This document shows positions 11,748 to 25,690 of a stretch of DNA of 64,000 nt, piece by piece. Made by a program: the position numbers and the translations under genes. The stretch's first letter is position 1, and each line of letters opens with the position of its first letter. Source of the DNA: Sediminispirochaeta bajacaliforniensis DSM 16054 (GTDB lineage: Bacteria > Spirochaetota > Spirochaetia > DSM-16054 > Sediminispirochaetaceae); the NCBI RefSeq assembly GCF_000378205.1, contig NZ_KB899425.1:1-64000 (forward strand), in the 5' to 3' direction. The notes below the pieces were generated by a model. The model was not told the DNA's origin, did no database searches, and worked only from the letters and a program-made list of their open reading frames with translations.

Positions 11748-12476
11748 ATGACCCATATTTCAATGAAAGAGATCAGAGATTCGCTCCCGGAAGAAAAGAA
11801 CCGTGCCGATTCTCTTTGGACTCGTTATATTCTTAGGCCGCTTTCGGTACCCGTTGCCTGGCTTTGTTTACGTTGGGGGCTACGGGCCAATATTGTTTCG
11901 TATCTTTCAGCCCTTATTTGCGTGTTTGCCGCTCTTCTGTTTGGATCGGCTTCCTTGGGCTGGGCGATTATTGGGGCTCTTCTTTTTAATGTGTTTGCTG
12001 TTCTTGATTGTGCCGATGGAAACATGGCGCGAGCCACTGGTACTACCGGGCCATATGGAGCATGGGCCGATGCAATCGGCGGATATGTGGCCTATGTTAC
12101 GGTCTTGTTAAGCCTCGGCTATGCTGCCGCCGTTCGAAACGCACTTTTTTTTGCGTGGGAGCCCAAGGGTAATGTCTGGGTATTACTTGGGGGAGTAGCC
12201 GCCGCCTCTAATATTCTTATGCGGCTTGCCTTCCAAAGCTACCGAAATATTGCTCCTGAAGGAAAGGCGGAAGCAAAAAAGTCAATCGGTTTGGAAAAAC
12301 TCCTGAGTGAAAATCTGGGTGTTACCGGGGTGTTGATGCCAGCGCTTTTTGTGGCCCTTCTTGCCGGAGGGCTGGGATATATTATGATTTTTTATACGGT
12401 TTTCTATGGGTTGGGATGCGTACTGGTCCTCCTTAAATTGATTCGGAAGGTAGAGCATGTTTCGAGAAAGAAATGA
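11748..12476 (+). CDS. CDP-alcohol phosphatidyltransferase family protein with altered signature
   Basis: The protein has 242 residues with several membrane helices. The family signature is D-x2-D-G-x2-A-R-x8-G-x3-D-x3-D. Here D87, D90, G91, A94, R95, G104 and D108 are in register, but position 112 is Gly, where the fourth Asp (the catalytic base) should be. The family transfers phospho-alcohol groups from CDP-linked donors. In a locus that also encodes CMP-aminoethylphosphonate synthesis (24956-25690), a role in transferring AEP phosphonate to the glycan or a lipid is an attractive inference. Its ATG follows the preceding gene by 6 bases; its end overlaps the next gene by 20 bases. Confidence 0.82.
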   Translation: MTHISMKEIRDSLPEEKNRADSLWTRYILRPLSVPVAWLCLRWGLRANIVSYLSALICVFAALLFGSASLGWAIIGALLFNVFAVLDCADGNMARATGTTGPYGAWADAIGGYVAYVTVLLSLGYAAAVRNALFFAWEPKGNVWVLLGGVAAASNILMRLAFQSYRNIAPEGKAEAKKSIGLEKLLSENLGVTGVLMPALFVALLAGGLGYIMIFYTVFYGLGCVLVLLKLIRKVEHVSRKK

Positions 12477-13863
12477 GACCTACATGCTGCTTTTTGTGGT
12501 GGTCGATACCTTATCAACCATCCTTGCCTTTTGCGCCGCAGTTGCCGTTCGTTTTATCATTCAGGAAGCAAATCTATTCGAGTTCTATGCCATCGATCTT
12601 CGGGAATATATGTATATAGGCCTGGTTCTTGCTTCTTCGCAGGTGATGGTCTTCTATTTTATGGATTTGTATCGTCCGGGGAAGGTTGGCCTGGTAACCG
12701 ATGAGTTTAATCGGGTAGTACTGGGGACAATCGTCACCATCTTCATGGCGCTGGGTGTTATTTTCTTTCTCAAGACCCATCGATATAGTCGTCTGGTCGT
12801 ACTCTATTTCGGAATTCTGAATGTCGCTTTTGTTTCCCTCGGCAGGGCTATTGCCAGATTCTTCATTAAGAAAATGCTCTTGAAAGGCCGGCGTATACGC
12901 CTTATTCTGGTTCTCGGTACCGGCAGAACCGCAAAGCAGTTCGAAGAGGTAATTCAACGAAACCGGCTTTACGGCTATCTGGTCAAGGCCTTTGTCCGGC
13001 TCCCTGAAGAGGGAGAGGTAAAGGTCGAAAACGATAAAATCCTTGGTTCGTTTGAGGACATTCCCCGGCTCCTAACCGAGATCAGGCCTCATCACGTTAT
13101 CTTTGCATGTGATTCCACCAGCAGTGATATGCTCCAAAGGGCAATACAGATGTGCAATCATGAAGGAATCCATATGCATGTGATACCCAGTTTCAGCGAA
13201 TTGATTACTTCAAAGGGCCGGCTTGAGAGCCTTGAAGGAATTCCTCTCATCACTTTGCGCGATATCCCTGCTCGAAGGGGCTTTAATCGTTTTTTTAAGC
13301 GTTTGTTTGATATTATCTTTTCCCTGTTGTTTATCATCCTTTTTTCTCCCTTTTACATCATTATTGCTCTGGCGATCAGGCTTACATCAAAAGGGCCTGT
13401 CTTCCTTTCACAGGAGCGTGTTGGACTCGACAACAAGTTATTCAAGGTACTGAAATTTCGTACCATGTCTGTGCAACAGCCGGGGGATTCCGATATCATC
13501 TGGACCACCAAGAACGATCCCCGAGTAACACCTGTTGGTCGAATCTTGCGAAAATTGTCCCTTGACGAAACCCCGCAGTTTTTTAACGTATTTACGGGAA
13601 CGATGTCGGTCGTCGGCCCCAGACCGGAGCGCCCCTATTGGGTCGAACAATTTAAAGAGCGCTATACCGGCTATATGCAGCGTCACGGCATGAAGGCCGG
13701 TATCACCGGATGGGCTCAAGTCAACGGCCTTCGCGGCGATACCTCCATCGAGGAACGGGTGGCCGCCGATATCTATTACATTGAGAACTGGTCGATTCTG
13801 CTCGATCTAAAGATTATTCTGCTTACCCCTTTTAAAAGTGTTATCGACAGGAATGCCTATTAG
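12457..13863 (+). CDS. Polyprenyl-phosphate sugar-1-phosphate transferase (first of two)
   Basis: The protein has 468 residues: four N-terminal membrane helices, a central CoA-binding-like/Rossmann domain (LVLGTGRTAKQFEEVI), then a catalytic bacterial sugar transferase domain. The latter has the membrane re-entrant segment FDIIFSLLFIILFSPFY, then KFRTM, the catalytic LDETPQFFNV Asp-Glu pair, and MSVVGPRPE. Such enzymes (WbaP/WcaJ/EpsE type) start glycan synthesis by moving sugar-1-phosphate from a nucleotide sugar to undecaprenyl phosphate. The start overlaps the preceding gene by 20 bases, with GGAAGG upstream. The next gene begins right after its stop. Confidence 0.92.
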   Translation: MFRERNETYMLLFVVVDTLSTILAFCAAVAVRFIIQEANLFEFYAIDLREYMYIGLVLASSQVMVFYFMDLYRPGKVGLVTDEFNRVVLGTIVTIFMALGVIFFLKTHRYSRLVVLYFGILNVAFVSLGRAIARFFIKKMLLKGRRIRLILVLGTGRTAKQFEEVIQRNRLYGYLVKAFVRLPEEGEVKVENDKILGSFEDIPRLLTEIRPHHVIFACDSTSSDMLQRAIQMCNHEGIHMHVIPSFSELITSKGRLESLEGIPLITLRDIPARRGFNRFFKRLFDIIFSLLFIILFSPFYIIIALAIRLTSKGPVFLSQERVGLDNKLFKVLKFRTMSVQQPGDSDIIWTTKNDPRVTPVGRILRKLSLDETPQFFNVFTGTMSVVGPRPERPYWVEQFKERYTGYMQRHGMKAGITGWAQVNGLRGDTSIEERVAADIYYIENWSILLDLKIILLTPFKSVIDRNAY

Positions 13864-19539: not shown

Positions 19540-20955
19540 ATGAATCGTAGGCGCAGGGTTTTTGTCCGTAATGCTCTTATGGCCATAGACGGTATTGTGA
19601 CCTTTTTTTCTTTCATAGTTGCTTACTATGTTCGTAACACGCCGTTTTTTTTCGGTCTTAAGGCCCTGTTTCCCTTTTCGAACTATTTCCCCTATCTTCT
19701 CATTTCACTGGTTTTTTGGTTGTTGCTCCTTCGCTTCTTCAATAATTATGCCTTTCTCGGGGGAGGAAAGAAGTCGTGGCGTAGGATTTTTGTCAATTTA
19801 CTGCCGGTGGAATTGGTCGGACTTGCTCTTCTTACCATGATCCTTTTCTTCCTTCGTGATCAGATCATTAGTAGGACCTTTCTTCTCTTTTTTGCGGCCA
19901 TTAATTATCTTATGCTTCTGATGACCAAGATATTAACCATGGCCTATTTTCTGCGGGAAGGAAAGATAAAGAAGTACCATCGCCGGGCTTTGTTGGTTGG
20001 CAATAAAAGATCTGTCGATTACTTCCTTTCCACTGAAAAACAGATGCCGGAGCTGTTGTTCGACATCATCACACAATCTGAGTTCATTATCAACGCAGAT
20101 GCCGTTTTAAACGAGAAGGAGCAAGAGGAACTGTCCGAGGCAATTCTTGATTTTATCTGGAACAATGTGGTCGACGAGGTGATCTTTGCCTATTCTGATT
20201 TGAACCTTGCCTCCATCAGTTCGCTCGTTACCGAATGCGGACGAATGGGCATATCGGTCAACGTTGTTCTGGATACCTCCAACATTGAGTTTCGCAAAAG
20301 TGAGGTTGATGTTGTAGGACCATTCAATATTATCACGTTCCAAACCTTCGACTATTCCCCGGTTCAACGTTTGGTAAAGAGACTTACCGACATTAGCGCC
20401 GGTATTATCGGAACTCTTATATGTTCATTGCTTTTTGTTGTTATTGCTCCTCTGATTAAGATAACTAGTCCCGGGCCCATACTTTTCAGGCAAGTAAGGA
20501 AAGGAAAGAACGGTAGAAATTTCGTACTTCTTAAATTTCGGACCATGTGCCTCGATGCGGAAGATCAGAAAAGGTCGTTACTGGATAAAAACGAGATGCA
20601 AGGCCAAATTTTCAAAATGAAATATGATCCGAGGATAACCCCCTTGGGAAATTTTCTGCGTAGGACAAGCCTTGATGAATGGCCGCAGTTCATCAATATT
20701 CTGCGCGGTGATATGTCTCTTGTTGGGACCCGGCCGCCAACGGTAGAGGAGTTCGGCTCCTACAGAAATTACCATCGTCGGAGGCTCAGTGTGAAACCCG
20801 GTTTGACTGGCCTTTGGCAGGTGAGTGGGCGTAACGATATTTCCGATTTCGAGGAGATCGTTAAACTTGATACCTGGTATATCGATCACTGGTCGATATG
20901 GCTTGATCTTAAGATTATTCTAAAAACGTTTCTGGTTTTGTTTCGAGGGAGATAA
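19540..20955 (+). CDS. Polyprenyl-phosphate sugar-1-phosphate transferase (second of two)
   Basis: The protein has 471 residues with four or five N-terminal helices, a Rossmann-like middle ([13 protein letters not shown]) and a C-terminal catalytic domain. The latter includes [25 protein letters not shown], the catalytic [10 protein letters not shown] Asp-Glu pair and [26 protein letters not shown] is typical. It belongs to the same superfamily as the protein at 12457, but the sequences differ enough to suggest different sugars. Two initiating enzymes in one locus suggest two lipid-linked glycans, or alternative starter sugars. It is the last gene before the phosphonate genes. Confidence 0.92.
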
Positions 20956-20995: not shown

Positions 20996-21032
20996 CATTA
21001 CCTTGATAAAGAAAGAACAACAGGACTATGTC

Positions 21033-22655
21033 ATGACAAAGAAAACCACACAGTTTCGGAATTTACTTGCCTCCGATCGTCTCGAATTTATCCTCGAGGC
21101 GCACAACGGTATCAGTGCGAAAATCGTCGAAGAGGCTGGTTTCAAGGGGATCTGGGGAAGCGGCCTTTCCCTTTCTGCTCAGTACGGGGTACGTGACAAC
21201 AATGAAGCAAGCTGGACTCAGGTTCTGGACATGCTCGAGTTTATGTCCGATGCCACCACGATACCCATCTTGCTCGACGGCGATACCGGTTACGGCAACT
21301 TCAACAATATGCAGCGGCTGGTGCGTAAGCTCGAACAGCGTGATATTGCCGCGGTTTGTATTGAGGATAAGCTTTTTCCCAAGACCAATAGTTTTATTAA
21401 AGGGACTGCTCAGCCTTTGGCTGACATCGAGGAGTTCTGCGGTAAGATCAAGGCCGGAAAGGATGCCCAGGGCGACGATGATTTCTCCATCATTGCACGG
21501 GTCGAGGCCTTTATTGCGGGCTGGGGGCTGAAGGAGGCAATGCGCCGGGCGGAAGCCTATCGGAAGGCCGGAGCAGATGCTATTCTCATGCACAGTGCTC
21601 TGTCGGTACCCGATGAGATCCTTGCTTTTAAAAAGGAGTGGGGCGACCGGCTTCCGGTGGTCATCGTTCCGACAAAGTACTATGCTACCCCTACGGATCA
21701 GTTCAGAGAGGCCGGCATTTCCATCGCCATCTGGGCAAACCACATGATACGAACGGCCATTGCCTCGATGCAGAAGAATGCGGCCACCCTTATGGCCGAA
21801 GAGTCTCTCATGGCCATAGAGGATTCCATCGCTCCGGTAAAGGAAATATTTCGCCTTCAGGGGGCGGCTGAGCTGCAGGAGGCTGAAAAACGCTATCTTC
21901 CCAAACGGGGAAAGGCGGTTCGGGCCGTGATCCTTGCCGCCAGCCGCGGTAAGGAGCTTGGTGAACTTACCGAAAAACGGCCTAAGGCGATGGTCCCGGT
22001 CTCCGGCCAGCCCCTTCTTGCCCATGTGGTGGACGGTTACAATTCCGTCGGCGTGAAGGATATCACCGTTGTCAGGGGATATGCAAAAGAGACAGTCAAT
22101 CTTTCCAATATAGATTATGCGGATAACGACAACTTTGAGAGCACCGGAGAGCTTGTCAGCCTTTCCTGCGCCCTCAAGTCCCTTGCCTCGGAAGATACCG
22201 GCAAGGAGTTGGTCGTTTCCTACGGTGATGTCCTTTTTAAGAAGCATATCCTCCAACTACTGCTCGAAAGCCATGCCGATTTTTCCATCGTGGTGGATAC
22301 CAACTGGAGTGAAAGTGTTAATAAGGGCAGGTTTGCCGACTATGTTCAGTGCAGCCGCCCCTACGGCCGCGATGCCTTCGGCCAGGAAATTTCATTAACC
22401 GAGATGAGTGAACATCTGCCCGAAAAGAGGACCCATGGCGAATGGACCGGGTTTCTTAAGGTCTCTGCCGATCACCGTCTTCTCCTTGGCAAGCTTGTCG
22501 AAAACCTTACGGTGGAAGATCCGTATGCGCGGATGAGTGATCTGCTCAACGCTTTGGTTGCCAACGGTGAGCGTGTGAGGGTTATCTATACGACTGGTTA
22601 CTGGCTCGATATCGACACGCTGGAAGATGTCGTGCTTGCCGGAAACCTCTTCTAA
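21033..22655 (+). CDS. Phosphoenolpyruvate mutase fused to a nucleotidyltransferase domain
   Basis: The protein has 540 residues from the ATG at 21033; a TTG at 21003 would add ten. Residues 1-290 are PEP mutase: DGDTGYGNF (82-90) binds Mg and [11 protein letters not shown] (111-121) is the PepM signature that separates it from isocitrate lyase-like enzymes. It forms the C-P bond, turning PEP into phosphonopyruvate. Residues 297-540 are a RmlA/LicC-type nucleotidyltransferase, but the usual GxGTRL loop reads AASRGKELG (302-310); PK (317-318) is kept. The standalone cytidylyltransferase at 24956 has the normal loop. The fused domain's role is therefore uncertain. The Ppd gene follows after 15 bases. 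Confidence 0.95.
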
Positions 22656-22670
22656 CACCGGAGGGCTGTA

Positions 22671-23816
22671 ATGATTGAAGCCGATCTTTTTGTGCGCCAG
22701 GCTTTAGAACGGGGGTTCGGCCTTTGGAGCGGGGTTCCCTGCTCCTACCTGAAACCCTTTATCAACCATGTTATCGATGATCCTGCCGTTCGCTATATCC
22801 CGGCGGTCAACGAGGGGGATGCCGTTGCCATTGCTTCCGGAAGTCATCTTGCGGGAATTCGGGGTGTGGCCATGTTCCAAAACTCCGGGCTGGGAAATGC
22901 GGTAAATCCGCTGACCAGCTTGAACAATACCTACCGTATTCCGGTCTTGCTGATCGTTACCCTCAGGGGAGAACCTGGGGCTCCGCCCGATGCGGTACAA
23001 CACGGCCTCATGGGGCCGATAACTACCGCCATGCTTGATGTGCTTCAGATTCCATGGGAGTACTTTCCAGACGAGGAATCAAAAGTGAGCGAGGCCCTCG
23101 ATCGGGCCATTACCTCCATGAATGGCACATCTCTTCCTTATGCTTTGGTGATGCGAAAGGGATCGGTGGCAAAGAAGGCGCTGAAAAGCAGCATGGAAAT
23201 TCGTGCCCCGAAAGTTGGCCGGCGTGGCGGTGCCTTCTTCGAGACCGAGGCAAACGCAAGCCGTAGCGACATGCTCAAGGCTATTCTTGATGCAGCCGGC
23301 GATGATGTACCGATTCTCGGGACCACCGGTTATACCGGACGAGAGCTTTATGCGATCAACGACCGATCGGGCAACTTTTATATGGCTGGTTCCATGGGCT
23401 GTGTTTCAAGCATCGGCCTCGGTATCTCCACGGTACGATCGGGAAGGGTTATTGCCGTGGACGGAGACGGAGCGATCCTCATGCGTATGGGGGCTCTTGC
23501 GACCAACGGCTACCAGCGTCCCGAAAACCTTGTGCATATCGTCCTCGACAACGGCATGCACGAATCTACCGGCGGTCAGGCCACCGTTTCCGCTTCCGTT
23601 GATCTCTGTGCCGTAGCCGCCGCCTGTGGTTATCGTAATGTTTTTGAAACCAGGAGTCCGGAAGAGCTTCGGGACCTCTTGTCCCAACATGATCTTTCCG
23701 GCATCACCTTTATCAGGGCTCGGACGATTCCCGGCAGTCCGGAAAACCTGCCCAGACCTACGCAGCGGCCGGAGGAGCTTTCAAAGCGCTTTGCCGCTTT
23801 CTTACAAAACCGATAA
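22671..23816 (+). CDS. Phosphonopyruvate decarboxylase
   Basis: The protein has 381 residues, normal for Ppd/AepY. It is a single-chain thiamine-diphosphate enzyme. NEGDAVA near residue 48 carries the cofactor-activating Glu, and GDG (265-267) with Asn294 (VLDNGMHEST) forms the metal/diphosphate-binding motif. It decarboxylates phosphonopyruvate to phosphonoacetaldehyde, pulling the unfavourable PEP mutase equilibrium forward. GGAGG lies 7 bases before the ATG. It is flanked by pepM and the transaminase in a tight operon, so the assignment is secure over sulfopyruvate decarboxylase. Confidence 0.94.
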   Translation: MIEADLFVRQALERGFGLWSGVPCSYLKPFINHVIDDPAVRYIPAVNEGDAVAIASGSHLAGIRGVAMFQNSGLGNAVNPLTSLNNTYRIPVLLIVTLRGEPGAPPDAVQHGLMGPITTAMLDVLQIPWEYFPDEESKVSEALDRAITSMNGTSLPYALVMRKGSVAKKALKSSMEIRAPKVGRRGGAFFETEANASRSDMLKAILDAAGDDVPILGTTGYTGRELYAINDRSGNFYMAGSMGCVSSIGLGISTVRSGRVIAVDGDGAILMRMGALATNGYQRPENLVHIVLDNGMHESTGGQATVSASVDLCAVAAACGYRNVFETRSPEELRDLLSQHDLSGITFIRARTIPGSPENLPRPTQRPEELSKRFAAFLQNR

Positions 23817-23844: not shown

Positions 23845-24945
23845 ATGACGAAAAAGAGACCTGTTATTCTGCTTAACCCCGGCCCGGTAACCATCAGCGA
23901 CCGGGTGAGGGAGAGCCTGCAGAGAGAAGATATGTGCCACCGTGAGCCTGATTTTGCAGCTTTGATGCTTGATGTCAAGAAACGGCTTGCTGCGATCTAT
24001 GAAGGTGGAAGCGAACATTTCGAGGCCCTGGTGATGACCGGAAGCGGAACCTGTGCCGTTGAGGCGATGATTTCCAGCCTTCTTCCTTCCGACGGAAAGC
24101 TGCTGGTGATTTCAAACGGGGTCTACGGCGAGCGAATTGCGTCTATGGTCAAGACCCATGGAAAGCAGATGGTGCTGGTAAAAAGTCCCTGGCCCGATCC
24201 GATGAATCTTGCCGAGGCGGAGCGGCTTTTGAAGGAAGATCCTTCCATTACCCATGTTTCCGCTATTCACAACGAAACCACCACCGGGCGGCTTAACGAC
24301 CTTGATGCTCTTGGTGCCTTGTGTGTCACATACAATAAGCCGATGCTCCTGGATGCGGTCTCCAGTTTTGGCGGCGAACGAATCGAGCTTGAAAAATGGA
24401 ACGTTGCCGCCCTTGCTTCCACGGCAAACAAGTGTATCCACGGTATCCCCGGTCTCAATTTCGTTCTTGTCAGAAAAGATCTTCTGGAACAGGGCAAGAG
24501 TGCCGCCGCCACCCTGTATCTCGATCTTTTTGCCTATTACCAAAAACAGAAAGAGGGTTTTTCTCCCTTTACCCAGGCGACCCATGTTGCGGTCGCACTC
24601 CAGGAAGCCTTGAAGGAGTTCGAAGAGGCAGGCGGCTGGAAGACGCGGAACGAGCGTTACCGGGAACTTTCGGTTCGTATTCGTGCCGAACTTGATGCCA
24701 TGGGTATCCGCCGCTTCTTAAAAGAAGATGAATACAGTTCCATGCTTTCGAGCTTTCACCTGCCCGAGGGCTACAGCTATGAAGAGCTCCACGATGAGCT
24801 GAGAAAAGAAAACTTCATCATCTATGCTGGACAGGGCGGACTCTTTCATTCGATTTTCCGCATCGCCAATATGGGTGATCTTTTTGATGCGGATATCGAT
24901 AGGCTTTTGGCTGTTTTCCGTCGGCTCATGGATTCCCGGAAATAG
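23845..24945 (+). CDS. phnW: 2-aminoethylphosphonate transaminase (biosynthetic direction)
   Basis: The protein has 366 residues, standard for fold-type I class V aminotransferases. LLNPGPV at the start, TGSGTCAVEAM, LLDAVSSFGG with Asp170 and the PLP lysine K196 in STANKCIHGIPG match AEP:pyruvate aminotransferases. Degradation pathways use it in the reverse direction, but here it follows PEP mutase and Ppd, so it should aminate phosphonoacetaldehyde to 2-aminoethylphosphonate. No phosphonatase (PhnX) gene is nearby. A transaminase fused to a cytidylyltransferase occurs in some relatives; here the two are separate genes 10 bases apart. Confidence 0.93.
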   Translation: MTKKRPVILLNPGPVTISDRVRESLQREDMCHREPDFAALMLDVKKRLAAIYEGGSEHFEALVMTGSGTCAVEAMISSLLPSDGKLLVISNGVYGERIASMVKTHGKQMVLVKSPWPDPMNLAEAERLLKEDPSITHVSAIHNETTTGRLNDLDALGALCVTYNKPMLLDAVSSFGGERIELEKWNVAALASTANKCIHGIPGLNFVLVRKDLLEQGKSAAATLYLDLFAYYQKQKEGFSPFTQATHVAVALQEALKEFEEAGGWKTRNERYRELSVRIRAELDAMGIRRFLKEDEYSSMLSSFHLPEGYSYEELHDELRKENFIIYAGQGGLFHSIFRIANMGDLFDADIDRLLAVFRRLMDSRK

Positions 24946-24955
24946 GACGTTTCCG

Positions 24956-25690
24956 ATGCCGATGGGAGTAAAAACGGCGGTGATTCTTGCCGCCGGCCGG
25001 GGCACCCGCCTCGGAAAACGCGGTCTTGAAGCGCCTAAAGGGTTTTTGCAGATCGGAGAAAAGCCGATTATCCAGGAATCCCTGGACCGGCTCAAGGCCG
25101 CCGGGGTTGAAAAGGTTGTTATCGTTACCGGGCATTTGGCCCATTTCTACGAAAAACTTGCAGCAGATTCCGGCGGTTTTGTCAGAACCGTCCATAATCC
25201 CGACTATGCCGATTCCGGTTCCATGTACAGCCTCTATCAGGCCCGCAAGGTCCTTGGGGACGCGGCCTTTTTCCTTCTTGAATCGGATCTTATCTACGAA
25301 AGCCGTGCCCTGGCGGTGCTGAAGGAGCAGTCTGAATCCGATTGTATCCTCATGTCGGGTTTTACCGGCAGCGGAGACGAGGTGTGGATCTATGCTCCCG
25401 AGGGCTATCTTGTCGATATGGGAAAGGTGCGGGAAACCTTGACTGGGCCTCCTTGCGGGGAACTTGTTGGGGTCAGCCTCCTCTCGCCCGAGGGCTACAG
25501 TCGCCTCTGTATCGAGGCGGAACGGCTTTTTTCAGAAAGCCTCAAGGTCGAATATGAGACAGCCCTTGTTGCCTCTTCCCGGAAAAAGCCGATCGCCTGT
25601 CACCTCGTTTCGGATCTGGTCTGGAGTGAGATCGACGACGAGTCTCATCTTCAGCGGGCGAAGACGCGTATCTATCCCCGATTGTCTTAG
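24956..25690 (+). CDS. PntC-like CTP:2-aminoethylphosphonate cytidylyltransferase
   Basis: The protein has 244 residues from the ATG at 24956 (AGGA about 8 bases upstream). AVILAAGRGTRLG (8-20) is a canonical nucleotidyltransferase loop, followed by APKGFLQIG with the conserved Lys, NPDYADSGSMYSLYQAR and FLLESDLIYE with the metal-binding Asp. The family includes LicC (phosphocholine) and PntC, which makes CMP-AEP from CTP and AEP in Treponema. Its place as last of the AEP genes supports PntC function. The product would be the donor for tailoring glycans or lipids. Phosphocholine-type specificity is the main alternative. Confidence 0.85.
   Translation: MPMGVKTAVILAAGRGTRLGKRGLEAPKGFLQIGEKPIIQESLDRLKAAGVEKVVIVTGHLAHFYEKLAADSGGFVRTVHNPDYADSGSMYSLYQARKVLGDAAFFLLESDLIYESRALAVLKEQSESDCILMSGFTGSGDEVWIYAPEGYLVDMGKVRETLTGPPCGELVGVSLLSPEGYSRLCIEAERLFSESLKVEYETALVASSRKKPIACHLVSDLVWSEIDDESHLQRAKTRIYPRLS

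Follow-up and report, generated by a model that had tools for sequence, protein, structure and literature searches.

PEP mutases (PepM) joined to a nucleotidyltransferase (NTase) domain have been described before. Rice et al. (2019, PMC6697681) report that about 33% of Ppm proteins carry PF12804, and count such fusions as nucleotidyl activation. They also describe clusters in which a fused NTase coexists with a separate one, in three oral anaerobes that include T. denticola. The enzymes assayed in that study, as its main text presents them, were separate PntCs only, and we found no remark in the main text on loss of the GxG(T/S)R arginine in fused domains. Our search of the open-access literature led only to this paper, and recovered neither an assayed PepM-PF12804 fusion nor a characterised fusion in which a variant loop is normal and active. 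The architecture and its coexistence with a separate NTase are already known. We did not find it stated that fused PF12804 domains form a family without the catalytic Arg and the AEP residues, and this point is apparently unreported in the open-access literature.

The activity of T. denticola PntC as a CTP:AEP cytidylyltransferase and its structure (Tde1415, 6PD1/6PD2) have been published. Its phosphate loop binds the pyrophosphate leaving group, and the mutants R15A, K25A and K153A each have <10% activity. The equivalent Arg is important in other members of the superfamily, AGPase among them: in E. coli GlmU, R18A lowers activity 6000-fold, and T20M/R21H in GalU causes a drop of about 500-fold. 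The AGPase modulatory subunit and GalF are substituted at the same Arg site, with low activity remaining in GalF, and the Leishmania UDP-glucose pyrophosphorylase is an NTase without this Arg. GMPPA is a non-catalytic, ligand-binding paralogue that acts as an allosteric feedback inhibitor. Fom1 is a different PepM-NTase fusion, whose cytidylyltransferase domain is active on HEP (PMC6697681).

Results

A phosphonate gene run with a fused and a separate NTase

We analyzed a window of 64,000 nt from Sediminispirochaeta bajacaliforniensis DSM 16054 (contig NZ_KB899425.1, positions 1-64,000). The genes for a PepM-NTase fusion, a decarboxylase, an AEP aminotransferase and an NTase lie in head-to-tail order in the window. 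The fusion belongs to the same architecture class as the Ppm-PF12804 fusions of Rice et al. (PMC6697681). The relevant features are:

21033..22655, + strand: PepM-NTase fusion, 540 aa (ATG start at 21033; in-frame TTG at 21003)
21033..21902, + strand: PEP mutase domain, residues 1-290 (TIGR02320, phmmer, Foldseek)
21918..22652, + strand: variant PF12804 NTase domain, residues 296-540 (PF12804 match, AF2 model, PntC structural match)
21936..21962, + strand: altered loop AASRGKELG, residues 302-310, with Glu308 at the Tde-PntC Arg15 position
21981..21986, + strand: Pro317-Lys318, retained equivalent of catalytic Lys25 (102/102 fusions)
22227..22229, + strand: Asp399, retained equivalent of Asp106, a putative metal ligand (102/102 fusions)
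22602..22616, + strand: WLDID, residues 524-528, equivalent by alignment of PntC WxEID (Glu220/Asp222)
22671..23816, + strand: phosphonopyruvate decarboxylase (TIGR03297, 405.8 bits, cut-off 312.5)
23845..24945, + strand: 2-aminoethylphosphonate aminotransferase (TIGR03301, 378.1 bits, cut-off 360.8)
24956..25690, + strand: separate canonical PntC, by homology a CTP:AEP cytidylyltransferase (6PD1, E 3e-45; nine key residues)
24989..25015, + strand: canonical loop AAGRGTRLG of the standalone PntC (from sequence)

The first-pass annotation had placed a PEP mutase with an altered NTase loop at 21033 and a canonical NTase at 24956; its coordinates, frame and both loop readings were exact.

The four genes close a cluster for exopolysaccharide or capsule that also has genes of the Wzi, Wzx and glycosyltransferase types. 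Two PF02397 priming sugar transferases were present in this one polysaccharide cluster (window 12454-13860 and 19540-20955). There was no LicD or CDP-alcohol phosphotransferase among the genes scanned in window 1-31000. The cluster would be an AEP phosphonyl-tailoring module. PepM would form phosphonopyruvate, from which the decarboxylase and aminotransferase would produce AEP. Homology with the assayed Tde-PntC suggests that the standalone protein then turns AEP into CMP-AEP destined for a surface glycan.

The PepM part of the fusion matched the PEP mutase model TIGR02320 over residues 8-278 (384.9 bits, cut-off 319.55, E 1.7e-115), and its EDKxxxxxNS motif was intact. It matched PEP mutase 1M1B by phmmer (E 2.5e-127) and 1s2t by Foldseek (E 1.6e-38, 66% identity). 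The full-length model of the fusion had a pTM of 0.57, and the geometry between the two domains was therefore left uninterpreted.

The standalone protein matched PF12804, was closest to T. denticola PntC (6PD1, residues 5-243) and grouped with TdePntC in the P clade. All nine residues R15, K25, E104, D106, K153, E164, E196, E220 and D222 were present, so that every catalytic and AEP residue of Tde-PntC is kept. Judged by its sequence, the 24956-25690 protein is the cluster's PntC.

The fused domain has the PntC fold and an altered site

The fused domain matched PF12804 over residues 298-421 (50.9 bits, cut-off 27). The AF2 model of this domain had a pLDDT of 95.5 and a pTM of 0.93, and its best structural match was PntC 6pd2 (Z 28.6, rmsd 2.0, 227 residues, 19% identity), ahead of weaker matches to GlmU, inositol-1-phosphate cytidylyltransferase and LicC. 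Its best NCBIfam NTase matches were sugar-1-phosphate NTases. The fold is shared with Tde-PntC at 17-19% identity, but Arg15, Lys153, Glu104 and Glu196 are absent. Where the PntC/LicC signature reads GxG(T/S)R...PK with the catalytic Arg, the fused domain reads SRGKE...PK; the Lys25 equivalent is present as Lys318.

The altered loop is fixed in a widespread family

We assembled 102 distinct fusions from 80 related loci, 98 spirochaete genomes and genomes drawn evenly from four other phyla. Arg was found at the Arg15 position (T. denticola PntC numbering) in none of the 102 PepM-PF12804 fusions, whereas it was present in 67/67 partner PntCs and in 10/10 other NTases of the same loci. The difference between altered and canonical loops is thus beyond chance, and aligning the fusions, as the first-pass annotation had proposed, showed the Arg-less loop to be conserved in all of them. 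In the length-kept alignment, the residues at this position were E (57), A (15), G (9), D (8), N (6), S (5) and Q (2); one fusion (L095) reads AAAQGEKLG and probably has Lys there when aligned ungapped. The fused domains grouped in a single clade, and no other sequence fell within it (87/87, support 0.84). The loop is shared by all relatives, among them a congener with 98% identity, and we therefore rejected the idea that it is a local mutation or a sequencing error.

Other positions of the site were either strictly kept or systematically changed. K25, D106 and G13 were kept in 102/102 fusions and N77 in 101/102. G11 was replaced by S, T or A in 99/102, S85 by E in 99/102, and E104 by Y or F in all 102. 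Lys153 was variable, and there was no conserved Glu at the Glu196 position. The partner PntCs keep the acceptor-side residues (D/E at E104 in 65/67, E196 in 65/67, E164 in 66/67, K153 in 58/67), which in the fused clade are substituted or vary. The fused clade has an invariant set of its own, which includes Glu373 (at the Ser85 position), Tyr397, Asp422 and Trp524, and Arg occupies position 12 (the R of AASRG; Arg305 in the window protein) in 87/102 fusions.

The Glu220 position was Asp in 94 fusions, Gly in four and Asn in four, and the Asp222 position was Asn in 67/102. Glu220 of Tde-PntC corresponds to the LicC metal ligand Glu216, and the same offset of four relates LicC D192 to Tde E196. 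The loci with Gly or Asn in place of the metal ligand were L166-L169, L170-L172 and L174 (GHWRGVN, GHWLNIN, GNWMNVN). Some members of a conserved family are therefore without the metal ligands.

The fused tail is under constraint: 24 of its last 251 positions were at least 95% conserved among 40 fusions, and a small sample of codon changes relative to the congener comprised 24 synonymous and 9 non-synonymous changes. On these grounds decay of the domain was rejected.

The survey also recovered other architectures. On other PepM lineages (L165, L173, L192-L200, L204, L207-L213) an N-terminal Fom1-like PF01467 domain replaces the C-terminal NTase. Fom1 and the window protein both join PepM to an NTase-type domain (PMC6697681), but the Fom1 NTase is an N-terminal PF01467 domain of another superfamily, with HxGH intact in the surveyed relatives. 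The two types were mutually exclusive; no protein in the survey had both PF01467 and the C-terminal variant NTase. The single canonical-type NTase fused to PepM in the survey was in a three-domain protein (L206:1501-3522, - strand) made up of a canonical-type NTase (GLGSRM), a PF01467-like domain and PepM; this NTase is N-terminal and scores as PntC-like. The variant model gave a higher score than the PntC model to a standalone NTase (L108:1468-2244, - strand), which has a canonical loop (AAGRGSRM) and is without PepM.

A canonical PntC accompanies nearly all fusions

A canonical PntC was also encoded in 76 of 81 genomes with a fusion. Counting the window, a same-strand PntC was nearby in 58/81 loci and immediately adjacent in 39 of these 58. 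Genome searches for the remaining 23 loci found a strong PntC elsewhere in 18, and no strong PntC in five (L004, L008, L019, L020, L045). The idea that the fused domain stands in where pntC is not nearby was rejected for the 18 and not for the five. One of the five, the L020 MAG, has a complete AEP cluster with no strong PntC match.

Among 98 spirochaete genomes, a strong PntC was found in 7/7 with the fusion and 5/91 without it (Fisher p 6e-8, ignoring shared ancestry). In even draws from three phyla, to which genomes from preceding searches were added, a strong PntC was found in 13/15 fusion genomes and 0/34 with other PepM types (p 4e-10, again ignoring shared ancestry); because profile A1 was built from fusion partners, part of the 0/34 result is due to these 34 genomes having a PntC of another subfamily.

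In Nitrospira, PntC adjoins the aminotransferase (AEPT), far from the PepM fusion. A Nitrospirales PntC ORF of 483 aa (L110:6500-7948, + strand) likewise adjoins the AEP aminotransferase, apart from the fusion, and also matches CDP-alcohol phosphotransferase. An aldo/keto reductase-like gene, named by eye, lies directly 3' of the Nitrospira fusion in two loci (L007:11412-12470, L013:11593-12480).

Discussion

We give about an even chance to the reading that the fused NTase domain does not activate AEP but has diverged into a nucleotide-binding module, probably without catalysis, with a possible regulatory effect on PepM or PntC. The tail would be catalytically silent or strongly weakened, and not a second copy of PntC. 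Its site would keep the nucleoside and alpha-phosphate side (equivalents of Asn77, Lys25 and Asp106), whereas the clamp on the beta- and gamma-phosphates (Arg15) would be gone, and with it the residues of the acceptor side (Glu104, Lys153, Glu196). Because the first side is kept, the clamp is replaced, mostly by Glu, and the AEP pocket is lost, a competent AEP cytidylyltransferase seems unlikely. Because these residues are lost and a complete PntC almost always co-occurs, the fused and separate domains do not appear to be interchangeable. This bears out the suspicion in the first-pass annotation that the pair is not simply redundant. The options it offered (another substrate, a structural role or lost catalysis) were the right ones, but the loop is not an oddity of a single protein, and the coexistence of fused and separate NTases that it had pointed out was not new, given the three oral anaerobes (PMC6697681).

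The tail may bind a nucleotide or a CMP-phosphonate without needing turnover, and so modulate PepM and/or the partner PntC. We favor a ligand-binding role that is regulatory or tethering because the domain is strongly constrained and because inactive NTase paralogues include regulatory partners. The tail's relation to PntC would resemble that of GMPPA, and of the large subunit of plant AGPase, to their active paralogues. GMPPA (relative to GMPPB), the AGPase large subunit and GalF are paralogues of active NTases with no or low activity, as the fused domain would be, and the AGPase large subunit and GalF are altered at the arginine equivalent to Arg15. Unlike the fused domain, none of the three is joined to the first enzyme of its pathway; we use them as a working analogy and claim no membership. 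The analysis shows the residue pattern, the monophyly, the co-occurrence and the fold, while the loss of activity, the ligand and the role as regulator or tether are inferred.

The main rival, a serious one that we nevertheless consider rather unlikely, is that the fused domain is an active NTase with a rearranged phosphate loop and a donor or acceptor other than CTP and AEP, such as a different phosphonate intermediate or a sugar-1-phosphate. It is serious because Lys25, Asp106 and, in most members, Asp at position 220 persist, and because Arg305 at position 12 might, from the alignment, take over from Arg15. The invariance of the first two and the 94/102 Asp count go beyond the needs of a pure pseudoenzyme, and they count against the non-catalytic reading, as do the Leishmania enzyme that works without the Arg, the low activity of GalF, and the L020 genome. 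The nearly invariant Asn77 is also consistent with activity, the invariants specific to the fused clade point to a specific pocket, the YGD and WLD(I/V) motifs resemble those of the sugar-1-phosphate NTases that were the best NCBIfam matches, and Fom1 offers a precedent of an active fused domain (PMC6697681). Against it, Arg15 is gone in every member, 8/102 have Gly or Asn in place of the metal ligand, and the window has no gene for a second phosphonate-processing step next to the fused gene. The Gly and Asn sub-lineages suggest that the function under conservation can do without metal catalysis; they could, however, be secondary losses.

Two further explanations seem improbable to a similar degree. 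The fused domain could be a second, slower or auxiliary AEP cytidylyltransferase, a case of real redundancy. The PntC fold, with PntC as the closest structural match, the treatment of such fusions as nucleotidyl activation by Rice et al. (PMC6697681) and the L020 cluster are in line with this. The contacts to the AEP amine (Glu104, Glu196) are not conserved, nor are Lys153 and Arg15, and canonical PntC is kept in 76/81 genomes, including Nitrospira, where it is beside AEPT and far from the fusion; these argue against it. Alternatively, the domain could be a structural or tethering element only, holding PepM to PntC or to another pathway enzyme, with vestigial ligand binding. Such a role would fit the immediate adjacency of pntC in 39 of the 58 loci with a local partner, as well as the finding that other PepM lineages carry PF01467 domains in place of this domain and never alongside it. 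The nucleotide-site residues Lys25, Asn77 and Asp106 are among the most conserved positions, which counts against this explanation.

Within the non-catalytic reading, we tentatively suggest, as one possibility with perhaps a minor share of the likelihood, that the tail is a product sensor: CMP-AEP or another CMP-phosphonate would bind in a nucleotide site no longer able to hold a triphosphate, and would throttle PepM and/or PntC. If true, this would be a feedback switch on phosphonate biosynthesis, fused to the committed enzyme. PF12804 fusions on about one third of PEP mutases serve as published evidence that nucleotidyl activation predominates (PMC6697681). If the C-terminal PF12804 domain is universally without the catalytic Arg, the support for that inference would have to come from the separate PntCs. 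The fused domain would then be a widespread, conserved component, as yet uncharacterised, whose function on the pathway's first enzyme could be tested.
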